This document shows, piece by piece, positions 26,512 through 33,719 of a stretch of DNA of 40,529 bases (position 1 is the first letter of the stretch; every line of letters begins with the position of its first letter). The stretch comes from an uncultured Bacteroidales bacterium. GTDB taxonomy: Bacteria; Bacteroidota; Bacteroidia; Bacteroidales; P3. The stretch spans positions 1-40,529 of the forward strand of contig CAMOFI010000005.1 in the NCBI GenBank assembly GCA_946613135.1, written 5' to 3'. The translations under genes were made by a program, and so were the position numbers. Below the pieces are notes generated by a model. It saw nothing but the letters and a program-made list of their open reading frames with translations, was not told the origin of the DNA and ran no database searches.

Positions 26512-27990
26512 ATGAAACTGACCGAAATATTACACGACATAGAATTCAAGTCTTTCTGCGAAGGAAAGGAATGCAGCGTAGACGAACGCAACATTGACGG
26601 GATTGTATTCGATTCACGCAAGGCGACGAAAGGTTATCTGTTTGTGGCCCAAAAGGGTGTCCATACCGATGGGCATATGTACATCAGCAAGGCAATAGAG
26701 CAAGGATGCAACACCGTGATATGCTGCGACCTGCCCGAGAAACAACCCGAAGGGGTCTGCTTTCTGAAGGTTAATGATGCCGACATGGCTCTCGGCATGG
26801 CAGCAGCAAACTTCTACGGCAACCCATCGAAGAAACTGCAACTGATCGGGATCACGGGAACCAACGGCAAAACGACAACGGTGACATTGCTTCACCGCAT
26901 GATGCGCGACATGGGCGTCCATGCAGGTCTGATCTCCACAATAGTGAACCGCATCGACGACGAAGAATTACAGGCGACACACACGACACCCGACGCCGTA
27001 GAACTGAACATGCTGCTTGCCAAGATGGTGGAAAGAGGCTGCGAATACTGCTTTATGGAAGTAAGCTCGCACGCCATAGTACAGAAACGCATTGCAGGAA
27101 TAAAGTTTGCCGGGGCCATTTTCAGCAACATCACTCACGACCACCTTGACTACCACAAGACGATGGCCAACTATATTGCAGCAAAGAAAACACTTTTCGA
27201 CAACTTGCCGGAACAGGCTTTCGCTCTTACCAACATCGACGACAAAAACGGACTTGTGATGGTTCAGAACTGCAAAGCGAATGTGAAGACATATAGCCTG
27301 CAGACTGTTGCCGACTTCAGATGCAAGATTGTGGAAAGTACCATTCATGGACAGGAACTGCAACTGAGCGTAAATAGCAATGCCCCTCAAGAATTCTGGT
27401 CACCCTTGGTAGGTCGCTTCAACGCTTATAACATTACCGCCATCGTGGCAACAGCCATATTATGCGGGTTCGGAACAGAGGAGACACTTAGGGCTGCAAG
27501 CAAGCTTCATGCCGCACCGGGACGTTTCCAGTACCTGCATGGCAAAGGCATCACTGCCATCGTGGACTACGCCCACACTCCTGACGCTCTCCAGAATGTG
27601 ATAGACACAATAAACGAAGTTCGCGACAAACGCCAAAACCTCATAGTTGTTGTAGGATGCGGCGGCGACCGCGACCCGTTGAAGAGACCCATCATGGCCA
27701 GAATCGCCGCAACAGGAAGCGACCATCTGGTACTGACATCGGATAACCCGCGTACCGAAGACCCCGAAAAAATACTCGACAGCATGGAAGAGGGACTGGA
27801 TGCTGAACAACGTTCAAAAACTGTACGAATCAGCGACCGCAGACAGGCAATAAAGACAGCAACAATGATGGCACACGAGGGCGACATAATCCTCATTGCC
27901 GGCAAAGGACATGAAACATATCAAGAAATCAACAACATAAAACACCACTTCGACGACCGTGAAGAAATTGGAAAACTGCTAAGCATCTGA
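26512..27990 (+). CDS. murE: UDP-MurNAc-L-Ala-D-Glu:meso-diaminopimelate ligase
   Basis: MurE adds the third residue of the peptidoglycan stem peptide in the cytoplasm with ATP. The protein has 492 residues and the three Mur-ligase domains: an N-terminal substrate domain (VFDSRKATKGYLFVA), a central ATPase with ITGTNGKTTT near residue 115 and MEVSSHAI, and a C-terminal domain with DYAHTPDAL and GCGGDRDPLKRP. The DNPR motif (in SDNPRTEDP) marks enzymes that use meso-diaminopimelate rather than lysine, so an mDAP-type wall is inferred. Confidence 0.97.
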   Translation: MKLTEILHDIEFKSFCEGKECSVDERNIDGIVFDSRKATKGYLFVAQKGVHTDGHMYISKAIEQGCNTVICCDLPEKQPEGVCFLKVNDADMALGMAAANFYGNPSKKLQLIGITGTNGKTTTVTLLHRMMRDMGVHAGLISTIVNRIDDEELQATHTTPDAVELNMLLAKMVERGCEYCFMEVSSHAIVQKRIAGIKFAGAIFSNITHDHLDYHKTMANYIAAKKTLFDNLPEQAFALTNIDDKNGLVMVQNCKANVKTYSLQTVADFRCKIVESTIHGQELQLSVNSNAPQEFWSPLVGRFNAYNITAIVATAILCGFGTEETLRAASKLHAAPGRFQYLHGKGITAIVDYAHTPDALQNVIDTINEVRDKRQNLIVVVGCGGDRDPLKRPIMARIAATGSDHLVLTSDNPRTEDPEKILDSMEEGLDAEQRSKTVRISDRRQAIKTATMMAHEGDIILIAGKGHETYQEINNIKHHFDDREEIGKLLSI

Positions 27991-28084: not shown

Positions 28085-29362
28085 ATGTTATATTATCTTT
28101 TCAACTGGCTGGACAAAACATTTGATTTCCCTGGTGCTGGAGTTTTTCAATACATCTCGTTCAGGGCAGCAATGTCTGCTATCACATCTCTGATAATCAT
28201 GCTCATCCTGGGCAAACCATTCATAAAATGGTTGAAGAAAAAACAAATCGGCGAAACAGTTCGCGACTTGAATCTCGAAGGCCAAAAGGATAAGGAAGGC
28301 ACTCCCACGATGGGCGGAATTCTGATTCTGGCATCGATAATAATACCCACTTTGCTCTTCGCAAAGCTCGACAACATTTACGTGCTCATAATGCTGGGCA
28401 CAACAGTGTGGCTCGGACTGATAGGTTTTTTGGACGACTATATAAAGGTGTTCAAAAAAGACAAAAAAGGGTTGAAAGGTAAATACAAAGTTATCGGACA
28501 AGTCATCCTGGGACTGGCCGTTGGTCTGTTGATAATGTATCATCCTGACATCACCATCAAAGAAACATCGTCGGTGGAATCGTACGTGGCTTCTCACAAT
28601 GTAAACATCCAAGACAACTACGAGAAAGCCAAAAACGAGTTCTCGCGTGACCCCGTGAAATCAACCAAGACAACCATCCCGTTCGTGAAAAACCACGAGC
28701 TCGACTATGCAAAGATTATAACCTGGATGGGCGACTGGACCAAAAACTGGGTATGGCTGGTATATGTTATCATTGTAATCCTGGTAGTTACCGCCACATC
28801 GAACGGAGCAAACCTCACCGACGGCATCGACGGACTGGCGACAGGAACATCGGCAATAGTGGGCTCCACATTTGCCATCCTGGCATGGGTATCGGGCAAC
28901 ATAATATTCGCCAACTACTTAAACATAATGTTCTTACCTAATATAGGCGAACTTGCGATATACATTACGGCGTTTGTCGGTGCCACGCTGGGCTTCCTAT
29001 GGTACAACACTCATCCCGCCGAAATATTCATGGGCGACACAGGATCGTTGGCCATCGGAGGAATCATTGCTGTTTTTGCCCTCCTCATCCGCAAAGAACT
29101 GCTTATCCCTATCATTTGCGGCATATTCCTTATAGAGAGCCTTTCGGTGATAATACAGACTGCCGGATGCAAGGCATACAGACGTCGGCACAAACTGCCA
29201 GTCGGCGAAGCTGTACCCGTCGACAAAAGACCGTTTCTGATGACCCCTCTTCATCACCACTACCAAAAGAAAGGAATAAAAGAGCAGAAAATCGTCATGC
29301 GCTTTTACATTGTAGGTATTGTACTGGCCATCATCAGCATTGTGACACTCAAACTCAGATAG
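28085..29362 (+). CDS. mraY: Phospho-MurNAc-pentapeptide transferase MraY
   Basis: MraY transfers phospho-MurNAc-pentapeptide to undecaprenyl phosphate, making lipid I in the inner membrane. The protein has 425 residues and about ten membrane helices. The motifs are KEGTPTMGG, the Asp pair in [23 protein letters not shown], the catalytic-region [16 protein letters not shown], and the [12 protein letters not shown] histidine motif. It is longer than E. coli MraY (360) because of a ~60-residue loop near residues 165-215, common in Bacteroidota. A 56-bp gap separates it from the murD remnant. Confidence 0.97.
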
Positions 29363-29418
29363 AACACTAACAAACTAAAAGAACTATAAATCCAACTTTA
29401 ACAAAACATCTTTGAAAT

Positions 29419-29964
29419 ATGTACGAATCATTAGCAACACAAGGACGCACCTCGGTACACACCGGTCTGGCTGGCATCGACTCGGCAAGACTGAAAAAAC
29501 TGCGTAGCAGCCACCTTAAAGAGTGCTTCAACTTGATCGACGAAATGAGACACAAACTCGAATTCGTGGCACGCATCAAGGGAGTATCCTTTATCGATGA
29601 TGCCGCCTCGCGCAGCGTCATGTCTACATGGTATGCACTCGAAACCATCGAAGGCAAAACCATCTGGATTGCCAACGGAAACCCGACAAACAGCAGCAAA
29701 GCCAACGAACTGAAACGGCTGCGCACTTTGGTGGAACAAAAAGTACAGACCATCATCACAATTGGAGACAGCACTCTGTACGAACAGGTTTTCGGCAGCG
29801 ACAAACTGAAAATCGTCGCAGCAAACAGCATGAACGAAGCAGTGACTAAAGCTTTCTACAGCTGCACCGAAAACATGAAAGTCCTCTTCTCGCCCGCCCT
29901 TGAAAATGGAATCTCGTACGAAACACAAGGCGATTCATTCAAACACGAAGTCAACGAACTGTAA
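29419..29964 (+). CDS. MurD C-terminal-domain-only protein (degenerate, likely non-catalytic)
   Basis: This 181-residue ORF sits at the usual murD position. HTGLAGIDSARLKKL, RHKLEFVARIKGVSFIDD and STWYALETIEGK align with the end of the central domain and the start of the C-terminal domain of Bacteroidota MurD. The N-terminal UDP-binding and central ATPase domains, some 270-300 residues, are absent, and the 56 bp upstream leave no room for them. Within the remaining domain, the DSKATN motif (E. coli Lys319 and Thr321) is DAASRS at 61-66, the GGxDK segment is NGNPTN, and SPACAS is SPALEN at 158-163. Such a protein cannot make UDP-MurNAc-Ala-Glu alone. The frame is intact, the codon use is like its neighbours, and the stop abuts the ftsW ATG. 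It is more likely a retained pseudoenzyme or scaffold than a decaying gene. A complete MurD must exist elsewhere, or be replaced. Confidence 0.85.
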   Translation: MYESLATQGRTSVHTGLAGIDSARLKKLRSSHLKECFNLIDEMRHKLEFVARIKGVSFIDDAASRSVMSTWYALETIEGKTIWIANGNPTNSSKANELKRLRTLVEQKVQTIITIGDSTLYEQVFGSDKLKIVAANSMNEAVTKAFYSCTENMKVLFSPALENGISYETQGDSFKHEVNEL

Positions 29965-31140
29965 ATGACCTCCGACAAGAAAGACATATTACACAAACTG
30001 CTAAACCCCTTCAAGGGCGACAAAGCGATATGGTTCATTTTTCTGATGCTGGCAATCATATCGCTCATATCGGTCTATAGCTCCGCAGGCTATCCGGCGG
30101 TCATCGCCGACACGACACCTTTGAGGGCTCTGATAAAACACGGGCTGTTTGTCGTTGCATCGTTCATTCTCGTCATTCTGTTGGCGAACTTTGACTATCG
30201 CAACTTCTCCGGAATGTCATGGTTCGGCTTTCTGATATCTGTGGCTCTGCTGATTGTTGCTGTGGCCATAGGACACGAAGACAATGCCGCCGGTTCAGGC
30301 ATGAGCAGATGGGTATATATCCCGCTGATAGGACGATTCCAACCATCCGAGTTCGCCAAAATCATCATCATCATCTATCTCGCAAGACTGTTGGCTCAAG
30401 AAAAAGAGACATTGCACGAGTGGACCACCCTGCGAAAAATACTCTTACCTATTCTTCTTGTTATCGGACTAATCGTCCCCGACAATCTGTCCACGGCACT
30501 TATCATATTTATTGTATGTTACGCCATGCTGAGGCTTACAAATGTCAACGCCAAGCAACTCAGACTGTCGGTCCTCGCTCTTTTGGCATTTGGACTGCTT
30601 GCCATTTTCGTAAGCGACAAACTCAACCTTCCGTTCCTTGAACGCTCCAGCACGTGGACGAGTCGCATAGACAAATGGTTGAATTTCGACGAAGAACAGC
30701 TCTCGCAAGAATCCATGGCCCGTATGGCTGTGGCCTCGGGAAAATTTTTCGGTGTCGGAGTAGGCTCAACAATTCAAGCAAGGCTGATGACACAAGCCAA
30801 CAACGACATGATATATTCTATAATCGTCGAGGAGACAGGCATGCTTGGTGGCCTTGTCGTTTTCCTGCTATACCTGTTCCTCTATATACGCTGCATTCGT
30901 ATTGCCTGGAGATGCGAGGGCGAATTCGGTCGCATGACCGTGGTTGGACTAAGTACCATGATATTCCTACAGGCAGGAATACACATGTGCGTCTCTGTCG
31001 GTGCCCTGCCGGTAACCGGACAGACCCTGCCGTTCATCAGCTCTGGAGGCTCGGCCTACCTGTGCATGGGTTTGGCGCTTGGAGTAATACAGTCTGTAGC
31101 CTACGACGTAAACCTGAAAGAAACTAAAGAGAATCATTAA
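29965..31140 (+). CDS. ftsW: Septal peptidoglycan glycosyltransferase FtsW
   Basis: FtsW is a SEDS polymerase that joins lipid II into glycan strands at the septum with FtsI. The protein has 391 residues and about ten membrane helices. YSSAGYP near the first helix, RWVYIPLIGRFQPSEFAK, the periplasmic-loop ARLMTQANNDMIYSIIVEETG (catalytic-region motif) and LPFISSGGSAYL are SEDS signatures. The ATG begins directly after the stop codon of the preceding murD remnant, so the two are surely cotranscribed and probably translationally coupled. Confidence 0.96.
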   Translation: MTSDKKDILHKLLNPFKGDKAIWFIFLMLAIISLISVYSSAGYPAVIADTTPLRALIKHGLFVVASFILVILLANFDYRNFSGMSWFGFLISVALLIVAVAIGHEDNAAGSGMSRWVYIPLIGRFQPSEFAKIIIIIYLARLLAQEKETLHEWTTLRKILLPILLVIGLIVPDNLSTALIIFIVCYAMLRLTNVNAKQLRLSVLALLAFGLLAIFVSDKLNLPFLERSSTWTSRIDKWLNFDEEQLSQESMARMAVASGKFFGVGVGSTIQARLMTQANNDMIYSIIVEETGMLGGLVVFLLYLFLYIRCIRIAWRCEGEFGRMTVVGLSTMIFLQAGIHMCVSVGALPVTGQTLPFISSGGSAYLCMGLALGVIQSVAYDVNLKETKENH

Positions 31141-31155
31141 CCAAAAATACAAGTC

Positions 31156-32277
31156 ATGAAAGCAATAATCAGCGGTGGCGGCACCGGTGGACACATCTTC
31201 CCTGCTATAGCAATAGCAAATGCCATCAAGGCCAGGTATGACGATGCCATTATTCTGTTTGTCGGTGCCGAAGGGCGAATGGAGATGGAAAAAGTGCCGG
31301 CCGCAGGTTACGAAATCAAAGGCCTTCCAATAGCAGGGCTGCAACGTAAACTTACACCAGCAAACATCATCAAGAACCTGCAGCTTCCCTTCAAGATGAT
31401 CAAGAGTCGCCGGATGGTCAAGAAAATCATTCGCGACTTCTCTCCCGACATAGTGGTTGGAGTAGGCGGTTTTGCTAGCGAACCTACGCTAAAAACTGCA
31501 GCGTCTATGGGATTCCCCACGCTGATTCAGGAGCAGAACTCCTATGCCGGATTGACAAACAAAATGTTAGCCAAGGATGCGCGAACCATATGCGTAGCCT
31601 ACGAAGGCATGGAGCGCTTCTTCCCGGCAGAAAAGATTGTCATCACCGGCAACCCGATACGGAAAGACATCGAACAGATGAGTGCCTCGACAGAAGATGG
31701 ACGCGCACACTTCGGTCTCGACAACGGTTCCAATGTACTTCTCATAATTGGTGGCAGCCTCGGAGCCCGCAGCATAAACAACATGATCCTGTCCAACCTG
31801 CAAAAAATCAAAGAGCAACAATCCTCACAGCAGGTACAGCTTATATGGCAGACCGGACAATGGATGTATGACGAGGCGCTAAAGGCTGTCGACGAAGCCG
31901 GAATGGGCAACATAATCAAAGTACACCGTTTCATCTCAAGAATGGATTTAGCCTACGCTGCCGCAGATGTGATCATATCGAGGGCAGGAGCCATATCCAT
32001 CAGCGAGCTGTGCATTGTCGGCAAACCGATCGTACTTGTCCCGTCGCCCAACGTGGCCGAAGACCACCAGACAAAAAACGCACTTGCACTTGTCAACAAA
32101 AATGCCGCCATTATGATTCGTGACAACGAGTGCGGCGAGCTCGGTATCGACACTGTATTCAATCTGCTCAACGACACAAGTCGAAGACTCTCCATGAGCA
32201 AAAACATCCAGTCGTTGGCAAAACGCAATGCTGCAGAACACATCGTCGACGAGATAGACAAAATAATCAAGAAATAA
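31156..32277 (+). CDS. murG: UDP-GlcNAc:lipid I GlcNAc transferase MurG
   Basis: MurG adds GlcNAc to lipid I at the inner face of the cytoplasmic membrane to make lipid II. The 373-residue GT-B protein shows GGGTGGHIFPAIAIA at the N-terminus, GVGGFASEPTLKTAASMGFPTLIQEQN, ITGNPIR, GGSLGARSINN and the UDP-GlcNAc site ISRAGAISISELCIVGKPIVLVPSP. It lies 15 bp after ftsW and 41 bp before murC. Confidence 0.97.
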   Translation: MKAIISGGGTGGHIFPAIAIANAIKARYDDAIILFVGAEGRMEMEKVPAAGYEIKGLPIAGLQRKLTPANIIKNLQLPFKMIKSRRMVKKIIRDFSPDIVVGVGGFASEPTLKTAASMGFPTLIQEQNSYAGLTNKMLAKDARTICVAYEGMERFFPAEKIVITGNPIRKDIEQMSASTEDGRAHFGLDNGSNVLLIIGGSLGARSINNMILSNLQKIKEQQSSQQVQLIWQTGQWMYDEALKAVDEAGMGNIIKVHRFISRMDLAYAAADVIISRAGAISISELCIVGKPIVLVPSPNVAEDHQTKNALALVNKNAAIMIRDNECGELGIDTVFNLLNDTSRRLSMSKNIQSLAKRNAAEHIVDEIDKIIKK

Positions 32278-32318: not shown

Positions 32319-33719
32319 ATGACATACTACTTCTTAGGTATCGGCGGAATAGGAATCAGCGCATTGGCTCGCTTTTTCAAGATGAGCGGACATACCGTAT
32401 GTGGCTACGACCGCACCGAGAGCCCGCTGACACGTCAACTCGAGAGCGAAGGCATTCCTGTCCATTACGACGACAACCCCGATAAGATTCCCGACAATAT
32501 CGACCTCGTCATCTACACACCCGCCGTCCCATACGACACTAAAGAATTCGAATTTCTGCGCAACAAAGGCGTCCCCATCAAAAAACGCTCGCAGGTGCTC
32601 GGCGAACTGACACATGGCAAGAAATGCATCGCCGTGGCCGGCACCCACGGCAAAACCACAACAAGCACACTGATAGCCCACCTGCTCAGCAAGACCGACA
32701 TCGGATGCTCCGCATTCCTTGGCGGCATATCGAAAAACTTCGAAAGCAACCTTGTCGTAAACAACGACAGCGAGTATATAGTGGTCGAAGCCGACGAATA
32801 CGACCGCTCCTTCCTGCAACTGCATCCCTATTATTCTGTAATTACCGCTACCGACCCCGACCACCTCGACATATACGGAACACACGAAAAAATGATTGAG
32901 GCCTTCGAGCAATACGCCAACCAGACATCGCCCGAAGGTGCCATCTTCGTGAAAGAAGGTCTGACCGGACACCACCACAATCACGAAGAAGACCACGCTC
33001 ACGAGGACGACGAGGACAAGACTCTGCATATAGGCGAAGAAATCAAACAATTCAGCTATTCGGCACGCTCCATCGAGCCCGACTATTACGCCATTAATGT
33101 CCGCAACTACAACGGCAACATCTTCTTCGACCTTCGCACACCAGAGCGGGTCCTGTACGACCTGGAGCTGCAAAACTCCTGTCTCTATAATGTAGAAAAC
33201 GCCGTCGCAGCCTCGGCTGTTGCTCTCCACTGCGGTCTCAACGAATATCAACTTCGCAGCGGTCTCAAGTCTTTCAAAGGCATCAAACGCCGTTTCGACG
33301 TCCGCATAAAAACCAAGGATCTGGTCTATATCGACGACTATGCACATCATCCAAGAGAAATTGCCGCAACAATCGAATCCGTAAAATATTTGTATCCCGA
33401 CAAAAGAATTGTAGGCATCTTCCAGCCTCATCTCTACTCGCGCACTCGTGACCTTGCCGACGGGTTCGCCGAAGCGCTAAGCCCGCTCGACGAAATAATC
33501 CTGATGCCCATCTATCCTGCTCGCGAAAAACCGATCCCTGGGGTATCATCCGGAATGATTCTGCGCAAAATCAATTCGATGAACAAATACTTAAGCACCC
33601 GCGAACAAATCCCCGATCTTGTCGACGCTCTCTACCCCGACGTGCTTCTCACTTTGGGAGCCGGCGACATCGACAGACTTGTACCCATACTTGAAGAACA
33701 TCTGAAAGAGAACATCTGA
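32319..33719 (+). CDS. murC: UDP-N-acetylmuramate:L-alanine ligase MurC
   Basis: MurC adds L-alanine to UDP-MurNAc, the first step of the stem peptide. The 466-residue protein has the N-terminal Rossmann motif GIGGIGISALA, the ATP loop AGTHGKTTT near residues 108-115, VEADEYDRSF, DHLDIYGTHEKM and the C-terminal DYAHHPREI and FQPHLYSRTR. Unusual is a His/Asp/Glu-rich insertion at residues 217-233 (HHHNHEEDHAHEDDED after Gly217) in the central domain; I know no such segment in typical MurC. The other active-site motifs are intact, so it should be active. Confidence 0.96.
   Translation: MTYYFLGIGGIGISALARFFKMSGHTVCGYDRTESPLTRQLESEGIPVHYDDNPDKIPDNIDLVIYTPAVPYDTKEFEFLRNKGVPIKKRSQVLGELTHGKKCIAVAGTHGKTTTSTLIAHLLSKTDIGCSAFLGGISKNFESNLVVNNDSEYIVVEADEYDRSFLQLHPYYSVITATDPDHLDIYGTHEKMIEAFEQYANQTSPEGAIFVKEGLTGHHHNHEEDHAHEDDEDKTLHIGEEIKQFSYSARSIEPDYYAINVRNYNGNIFFDLRTPERVLYDLELQNSCLYNVENAVAASAVALHCGLNEYQLRSGLKSFKGIKRRFDVRIKTKDLVYIDDYAHHPREIAATIESVKYLYPDKRIVGIFQPHLYSRTRDLADGFAEALSPLDEIILMPIYPAREKPIPGVSSGMILRKINSMNKYLSTREQIPDLVDALYPDVLLTLGAGDIDRLVPILEEHLKENI

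Follow-up and report, generated by a model that had tools for sequence, protein, structure and literature searches.

A stand-alone C-terminal domain of MurD is retained in the dcw cluster of many Bacteroidales that carry a putative MurL–MurD2 route

In the window, that is, the whole 40,529-nucleotide stretch of DNA analysed here, the place of murD between mraY and ftsW is taken by a 181-codon gene, MurD-C, which is homologous to the C-terminal domain of MurD and lacks the ATPase half. The window is the entire contig C5 of a metagenome-assembled genome of an uncultured Bacteroidales bacterium (1.74 Mb, 140 contigs, 75% complete). The gene is under purifying selection, the stand-alone form is associated with MurL, and trees place the truncation of MurD more than once; the view of the initial annotation that this was a single odd locus had to be given up, as the pattern is repeated across many families of the order. 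The most satisfactory reading, and in our judgement a probable one, is that MurD-C would be the non-catalytic C-domain of the original dcw MurD, kept for a second job of a structural or regulatory kind. The features of the locus are as follows.

26512..27990, + strand: murE of the dcw cluster, upstream of MurD-C (NF001126 and TIGR01085 over cut-off)
28085..29362, + strand: mraY, upstream neighbour of MurD-C (TIGR00445 over cut-off)
29363..29418, + strand: spacer of 56 bp that separates MurD-C from mraY and whose sequence shows no trace of the ATPase half
29419..29964, + strand: MurD-C, the stand-alone MurD C-terminal domain (181 aa, ATG start, TAA stop)
29419..29550, + strand: residues 1–44 of MurD-C, derived from the last part of the central domain of MurD and with another sequence in place of the GKHN-type motif (helix/linker modelled at low confidence)
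29551..29961, + strand: residues 45–181 of MurD-C, the predicted folded Mur ligase C-terminal (Rossmann-like) domain (pLDDT, Foldseek)
29965..31140, + strand: ftsW, downstream neighbour of MurD-C, assigned by position and by TIGR02614 as best NCBIfam match (230 bits, cut-off of 337.5 not reached)
31156..32277, + strand: murG (TIGR01133 over cut-off)
32319..33719, + strand: murC (TIGR01082 over cut-off)

The ATG of ftsW at 29965 directly abuts the stop codon of MurD-C. Curated NCBIfam cut-offs are passed by the MurE, MraY, MurG, MurC, FtsA and FtsZ of the window, and its mraZ-like ORF gave no NCBIfam match at E 1e-20. The murD model TIGR01087 matches MurD-C with 66.3 bits (E 2.7e-18) over positions 279–440 of 441, which is below the curated cut-off of 211.95 bits, and the 181 residues do not reach the length of the three-domain enzyme; in Pfam only Mur_ligase_C is matched, with 20.1 bits, under its cut-off of 28.4. 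The P-loop (GxxGKT/S) and the catalytic centre of the central domain are absent, since the ORF starts past them and mraY ends 56 bp upstream. The initial annotation had described here an intact ORF that covers only the end of the central domain and the C-terminal domain of MurD, with the DSKATN, GGxDK and SPACAS motifs replaced and with no remnant of the ATPase half in the upstream gap, and each of these points was borne out: the sequence carries IDDAASRS, NGNPTN and, in place of SPACAS, SPALEN. A Lys stands in the K348-type column, in a loop where a 4-residue insert makes the alignment unsure.

MurD-C is predicted to fold as the C-terminal domain of MurD. The AF2 model, based on an alignment of 64 sequences, has a mean pLDDT of 84.8, with block means of 44–60 for residues 1–40, 81 for residues 41–50 and 91–98 from residue 51 onwards. 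A Foldseek comparison of this model with the PDB gave MurD at all ranks from 1 to 31 (rmsd about 2–4 Å), and a profile of 28 domains of the MurD-C type, two of them from full-length MurD, retrieved 11 distinct sequences from the PDB at E 0.001, all of them MurD. Residues were compared between 43 stand-alone and 73 full-length forms. The His of GKHN occurs in 2% of the former and 100% of the latter, and the following Asn in 28% and 100%; the K348-type and K319-type Lys, near-invariant in the full-length forms, are kept in 21% and 51% of the stand-alone ones. The fold core stays in the stand-alone forms, with the D317-type Asp in 100% and the Ser and Pro of SPA in 93–95%. Loss of substrate-side residues together with retention of the fold core is the pattern expected if catalysis has gone and the domain itself is selected. 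The stand-alone forms of G148 and G029 retain the D-Glu-side motifs NDSKATN, GGIDKGNDY and SPACASFD.

The comparison with relatives proposed by the initial annotation showed the stand-alone ORF at the same place in 25 of the 25 genomes of the genus searched and a full-length murD at this locus in none of them, so that neither a single-strain deletion nor an artefact was upheld. A scan of named genomes added 65 relatives, labelled uncultured Bacteroidales, Bacteroidetes or Candidatus Colimorpha and in many cases from rumen or hindgut. All 65 loci have an intact ORF of 160–181 aa, always in the order mraY, domain, ftsW; the gap between the aligned end of mraY and the domain has a median of 44 nt, and the distance from the domain to the aligned ftsW start lies anywhere between −19 and 715 nt. 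For the six pairs with the smallest dS, dN/dS was 0.045, 0.061, 0.087, 0.049, 0.10 and 0.044; the seventh pair has 0.25, and beyond it the values vary. These closest values, 0.04–0.10 and far under 1, together with the intact frames of the 65 relatives, agree with the earlier claim that the ORF is maintained. Over 313 pairs at dS 0.05–1.5 the median dN/dS was 0.28 for MurD-C, 0.20 for ftsW and 0.10 for mraY. The dN/dS of MurD-C climbs at larger dS, up to 1.04 in a single distant pair, and this rise is taken to be mostly saturation. In ten hand-picked pairs of each kind, divergence relative to ftsW had a median ratio of 1.64 for the stand-alone domain versus 1.04 where the domain is part of full-length MurD; for G000/G005, the pair to which the window belongs, the ratio is 0.79.

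The source genome offers a candidate for the missing ligase. It holds eight Mur_ligase_M matches in seven genes, namely MurE and MurC in the window, MurF, a MurF-Alr fusion, FolC, an Mpl/MurC-like ligase under both cut-offs, and an ORF of 925 aa. The two MurF-like genes lie on contigs C4 and C17; one encodes MurF on its own (about 520 aa) and the other the fusion of MurF to alanine racemase. The ORF of 925 aa joins matches to MurL and murD in one frame:

Contig C1, 16065–18839 (566–3340 of locus L039, − strand in L039): MurL-MurD2 fusion, 925 aa

Its MurL part matches NF041275 with 235 bits (E 9.3e-70), below a Xanthomonadales-specific cut-off of 700 bits, and its murD part is a full MurD match of 280 bits, over cut-off. 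The fusion has the P-loop GTKGKSTT, the motif LNLFQEHLDHY with Glu before His, and GGYSRGIDY with Arg at the K348-type position, where the MurD of A. baumannii has Asp and Lys, respectively. The L-Glu preference of Xanthomonas MurD2 depends on these two residues, whose exchange switches the enzyme to D-Glu, and the L-Glu product of MurD2 is epimerised by MurL (PMC8788868). Glu and Arg were both present in all 22 MurD2 loci examined, which represent 21 distinct genes because L111 and L126 are one gene; 21 of the 22 were matched without requiring Arg, the remaining one being L122. MurI had no match in the source genome, which is 75% complete. The missing ligase is best explained by a Xanthomonas-type L-Glu/epimerase route that would run through the fusion, with the L-Glu chemistry of this organism read from these motifs. 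The initial annotation had guessed at D-Glu addition by a fused ligase or a different route, and the fusion on contig C1 fits that guess. By frame length, MurL and MurD2 are also fused in G005, G103, G207, G297 and G131; they are adjacent separate genes in G001, G002, G016 and G021, which are members of the genus.

The distribution of this route was surveyed in 295 genomes of the order. MurL was matched in 100, of which 97 were counted as solid (G076, G099 and G212 were left out as fragments or weak matches), so that the putative L-Glu/epimerase route was solidly found in 97 of 295. Among 395 genomes drawn from the phylum, MurL was found at E 1e-20 in the source genome only. MurI was over cut-off in 178 of the 295 genomes; no strong MurI match was present in the 97 MurL-positive genomes, and weak ones (E 3e-12 to 2e-5) occurred in 18 of them. 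The dcw murD locus of these 97 genomes holds the stand-alone form in 37, full-length murD in 52 and nothing in five, and is cut by a contig end in three; in all 37 stand-alone cases the frame is closed by an upstream in-frame stop. In the five genomes G044, G153, G260, G101 and G205 (completeness 73–95%) MurD-C was not found even at E 0.01, a threshold at which only MurD2 and, in two of them, weak matches elsewhere came up; the function is thus dispensable there or the domain was missed. In 80 MurL-negative genomes, MurD is full-length in 73, one of which (G293) has MurD2 with no MurL found. The other seven comprise a stand-alone-like domain (G266), parts taken as contig ends (G179, G263 and G306), a split gene (G235), a weak match (G195) and no match (G041). 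The split murD of G235 (L233) is divided between a 330-codon and a 250-codon frame on one contig, probably through a frameshift, and that genome has a MurI match of E 2.6e-31.

Stand-alone MurD is associated with MurL: the ratio of stand-alone to full-length forms is 37 to 52 in MurL-positive and 0 to 73 in MurL-negative genomes, with G266 and G039 left out (Fisher p 4e-12, only a guide as the genomes are related). In G039 (98% complete; L059, L109), which was looked at separately, a degenerate stand-alone MurD domain is present, and MurL, MurI, MurD2 and full MurD were not found. The domain of G266 (L232) stands in a 269-codon frame with segments seemingly inserted in frame, some of them alike; this genome is 68% complete, MurL was not found in it, and its genus has MurL-positive members. 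In G224 (L056), the mraY that directly precedes the stand-alone domain is apparently split, its two frames overlapping.

The 52 MurL-positive genomes that keep full-length MurD imply that MurL alone does not lead to truncation. Their copies are of the D-Glu type: the P-loop and NDSKATN are present in 52 of 52, the K348-type Lys motif, ESSFQL and DHxDR in 51 each, HN in 50, the SPACAS pattern in 45 and the EHRxE pattern in 43. With motifs so largely intact, decay by way of a dead full-length enzyme was not supported. MurI is over cut-off in none of these 52 genomes. Class IV aminotransferases, none over cut-off, were matched in 21 of 43 full-length versus one of 37 truncated MurL-positive genomes; among ten examined, six best matched a D-amino-acid transaminase model, one matched a branched-chain model about equally, one was IlvE and two were PabC-like. 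Such an enzyme as the D-Glu source that would explain the retained MurD in some MurL-positive genomes is only a lead.

Phylogenies indicate that MurD was truncated more than once. The ftsW tree held 116 genomes (43 stand-alone, 52 full-length MurL-positive and 21 full-length MurL-negative). G076, G131, G119, G235, G266, G223, G030 and G037 were dropped because of contig ends, a frameshift, an interruption, a mis-hit or a lack of ftsW, and 19 of the 25 genus genomes were removed for thinning; the full-length MurL-positive rows, here and in the start-site analyses below, include G099 (MurL fragment only) and G293. Eighteen changes between stand-alone and full-length states were counted on the ftsW tree, at least six of them forced by starred branches, and 11 on the C-domain tree, at least three of them so forced, both trees being quick ones with long-branch warnings. 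Both forms occur within single genera: g6 (G148 and G029 versus G246), g51 (G073 versus G183 and G276), g36 (G058 versus G172) and g137 (G176 versus G270). The short/full pairs G251/G036 and G176/G270 agree on both trees; G073 with G183 and G276 is starred on the C-domain tree and part of one poorly resolved node on the ftsW tree, and G148/G029 beside G246 and G058 beside G172 are seen on the ftsW tree only. Since regain in place of a deleted half is unlikely, most changes of state are probably losses. A single ancient truncation or a spread of the short gene is disfavoured by this pairing of short and full forms. A split gene with its other half in another frame was also considered, and no N-terminal half lay between in the 17 loci, out of 20, that show mraY upstream (contig ends truncate L044, L045 and L046, of which L044 and L046 lie outside the stand-alone count).

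These observations could be accounted for if the N-terminal and ATPase domains of the dcw MurD had been deleted in place and the C-domain left. The L-Glu route would have replaced the ligase, by which the ATPase half would have become dispensable, and a second task of MurD, independent of catalysis, would be the reason for which the C-domain was kept. This task would most likely lie in protein–protein contacts, with MurD-C as a docking or regulatory component of the complex for cytoplasmic precursors near MurE, MurC, MurG, MraY and FtsW. By analogy this docking role is plausible: binding of MurD, MurE and MurF to MurG and MreB, and association of Mur ligases with MraY, are described from other bacteria (PMC6420597). 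It is weakened by the five MurL-positive genomes with no MurD-C found, by the faster divergence of the stand-alone domain in most of the picked pairs, and by G039 and G266, which have a stand-alone form with no MurL found. The maintained MurD pseudoenzyme that had been guessed at from this locus looks right, given purifying selection, 65 intact frames out of 65 and the absence of the ATPase half. An alternative that we consider unlikely gives MurD-C a part in the L-Glu route, as sensor or regulatory subunit, in which it would bind and tune MurL-MurD2 or bind UDP-MurNAc-dipeptide or D-Glu. The tie of the stand-alone form to MurL and the D-Glu-side motifs of some forms (G148, G029) speak for such a sensor, but MurD2 has a complete C-domain of its own, most substrate-side motifs are changed in the window's lineage, and MurD-C and the fusion lie on different contigs in the source genome.

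Still less probable is a slowly decaying pseudogene, or a spacer kept only for translational coupling to ftsW. The quick divergence in most picked pairs, the five empty MurL-positive genomes and the stop codon that abuts ftsW in the window would suit it. Yet the frames are intact in all 65 relatives, dN/dS is low in the six closest pairs and has a median of 0.28 over the 313 pairs versus 0.20 for ftsW, the fold core is conserved, and the distance to ftsW varies so widely that tight coupling is not conserved; a neutral spacer is disfavoured by dN/dS. An artefact of assembly or annotation, or a deletion in a single strain, is conceivable in that the window is a contig of a metagenome-assembled genome, but the same ORF recurs in many separate assemblies (25 of 25 genus genomes and 65 of 65 named loci), by which an assembly artefact is rejected and this whole reading becomes negligible.

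Retention of the C-domain for a non-catalytic job may be refined further by the position of the start codon. With starts of stand-alone forms assigned at the nearest Met, the length is 182 aa in 13 of 18 forms and 181 aa in two of 18, and the forms of the genus have 176–181 aa; most truncations reach down to one shared Met. This Met occurs in all 38 full-length rows that aligned, which come from 37 genomes including one MurL-negative (a 39th row is unaligned), in 54 of 54 full-length genes of the MurL-positive set (53 without the misplaced MurL-negative genome G030) and in 19 of 21 MurL-negative ones. The 20 nt upstream of the stand-alone starts have A at 0.53 and G at 0.07 (62 rows, six of them not at a start codon). 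In MurL-positive full-length genes, the 20 nt before the shared Met have A at 0.47 and G at 0.07 versus 0.33 and 0.22 gene-wide; the site ranks 10th of 419 windows by A minus G, and codons −8 to 0 account for nine of the 12 highest-ranking windows (the windows overlap). The corresponding values in MurL-negative full-length genes are 0.33 and 0.15, 112th of 418, at equal GC (p 0.0006 for the contrast, G030 left out). Predicted mRNA structure at the shared Met is −1.08 in MurL-positive genes, versus a gene mean of −4.95 and −1.72 at murD's own start, and −3.65 in MurL-negative genes (p 0.0005 for the contrast). In Flavobacterium, A at −3 and mRNA structure tune initiation, and Bacteroidetes initiate without Shine-Dalgarno sequences (PMC6847099).

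It is a serious possibility, somewhat short of probable, that murD in MurL-positive genomes already made a C-domain-only protein from an internal start and that truncation removed the longer product, which would account for most truncations sharing one start. The shared Met in full-length MurL-positive genes, its start-like, A-rich and G-poor context and mRNA predicted to be as weakly structured as at real starts argue for two products. On the other side, the contrast is uncorrected for kinship, and a kinship-aware comparison comes down to one to four independent pairs, for which a sign test is powerless. Values of z above 1 on both measures occur in 33 of 52 MurL-positive but also in five of 21 MurL-negative genes, and codons −6 to −8 of this site also account for three of the 12 most A-rich, G-poor windows in MurL-negative genes, so the loop as such contributes some of the signal. 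In addition, the starts of the short forms are assigned ones, and some of these forms have an earlier in-frame Met (e.g. G309). The fullest form of the idea is held a little more tentatively: the murD gene would have two products, the D-Glu ligase and an internally started C-domain with a non-catalytic role in lipid II or division, and once the L-Glu route had come, many lineages would independently have deleted the ligase part.

Mur ligases are antibiotic targets, and most work on them has treated them as enzymes. That the catalytic half was lost repeatedly and the same C-terminal piece kept is a natural experiment that separates catalysis from any other role, and with it a single small protein is enough to test the long-standing idea of a Mur/FtsW assembly. 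The repeated reduction of MurD to the same, apparently inactive, selected end piece hints at a non-catalytic second job of MurD. Among the papers listed in searches mostly confined to the open literature, none deals by its title with a MurD C-domain that stands alone, nor with MurL in Bacteroidales. The passages that name bearers of MurL list Proteobacteria, actinobacteria and a few others, with Bacteroidota not among them (PMC8788868; PMC5808125), so these lists do not include the order, in which roughly one in three of the genomes sampled carries the putative route.

We rate MurD-C as a putative pseudoenzyme form of MurD that stands beside an already known alternative route. With canonical MurD it has in common the sequence of the C-terminal domain, the predicted fold and the gene position, and it differs in having neither the N-terminal nor the ATPase domain, in the loss of the P-loop and GKHN and in the change of most Glu-side motifs. 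MurT, the subunit of GatD/MurT, is another case of a Mur ligase fold used outside stem-peptide ligation, with a weak Foldseek match to MurD-C (6gs2); MurT retains its ATPase domain, which MurD-C lacks. The fusion of MurE and MurF in Bordetella, with MurG as scaffold, is a precedent for Mur proteins as an assembled complex, and a stand-alone non-catalytic Mur domain does not appear in the passages that describe it (PMC6420597). The MurD2-MurL route of Xanthomonas and Micromonospora (PMC8788868; PMC5808125) shares with the present one a full MurD2 with both L-Glu determinants, here joined to a candidate MurL homologue, and no MurI. In contrast to that route, MurL and MurD2 form one polypeptide in the source genome and some relatives, and the old MurD domain is here retained beside them.
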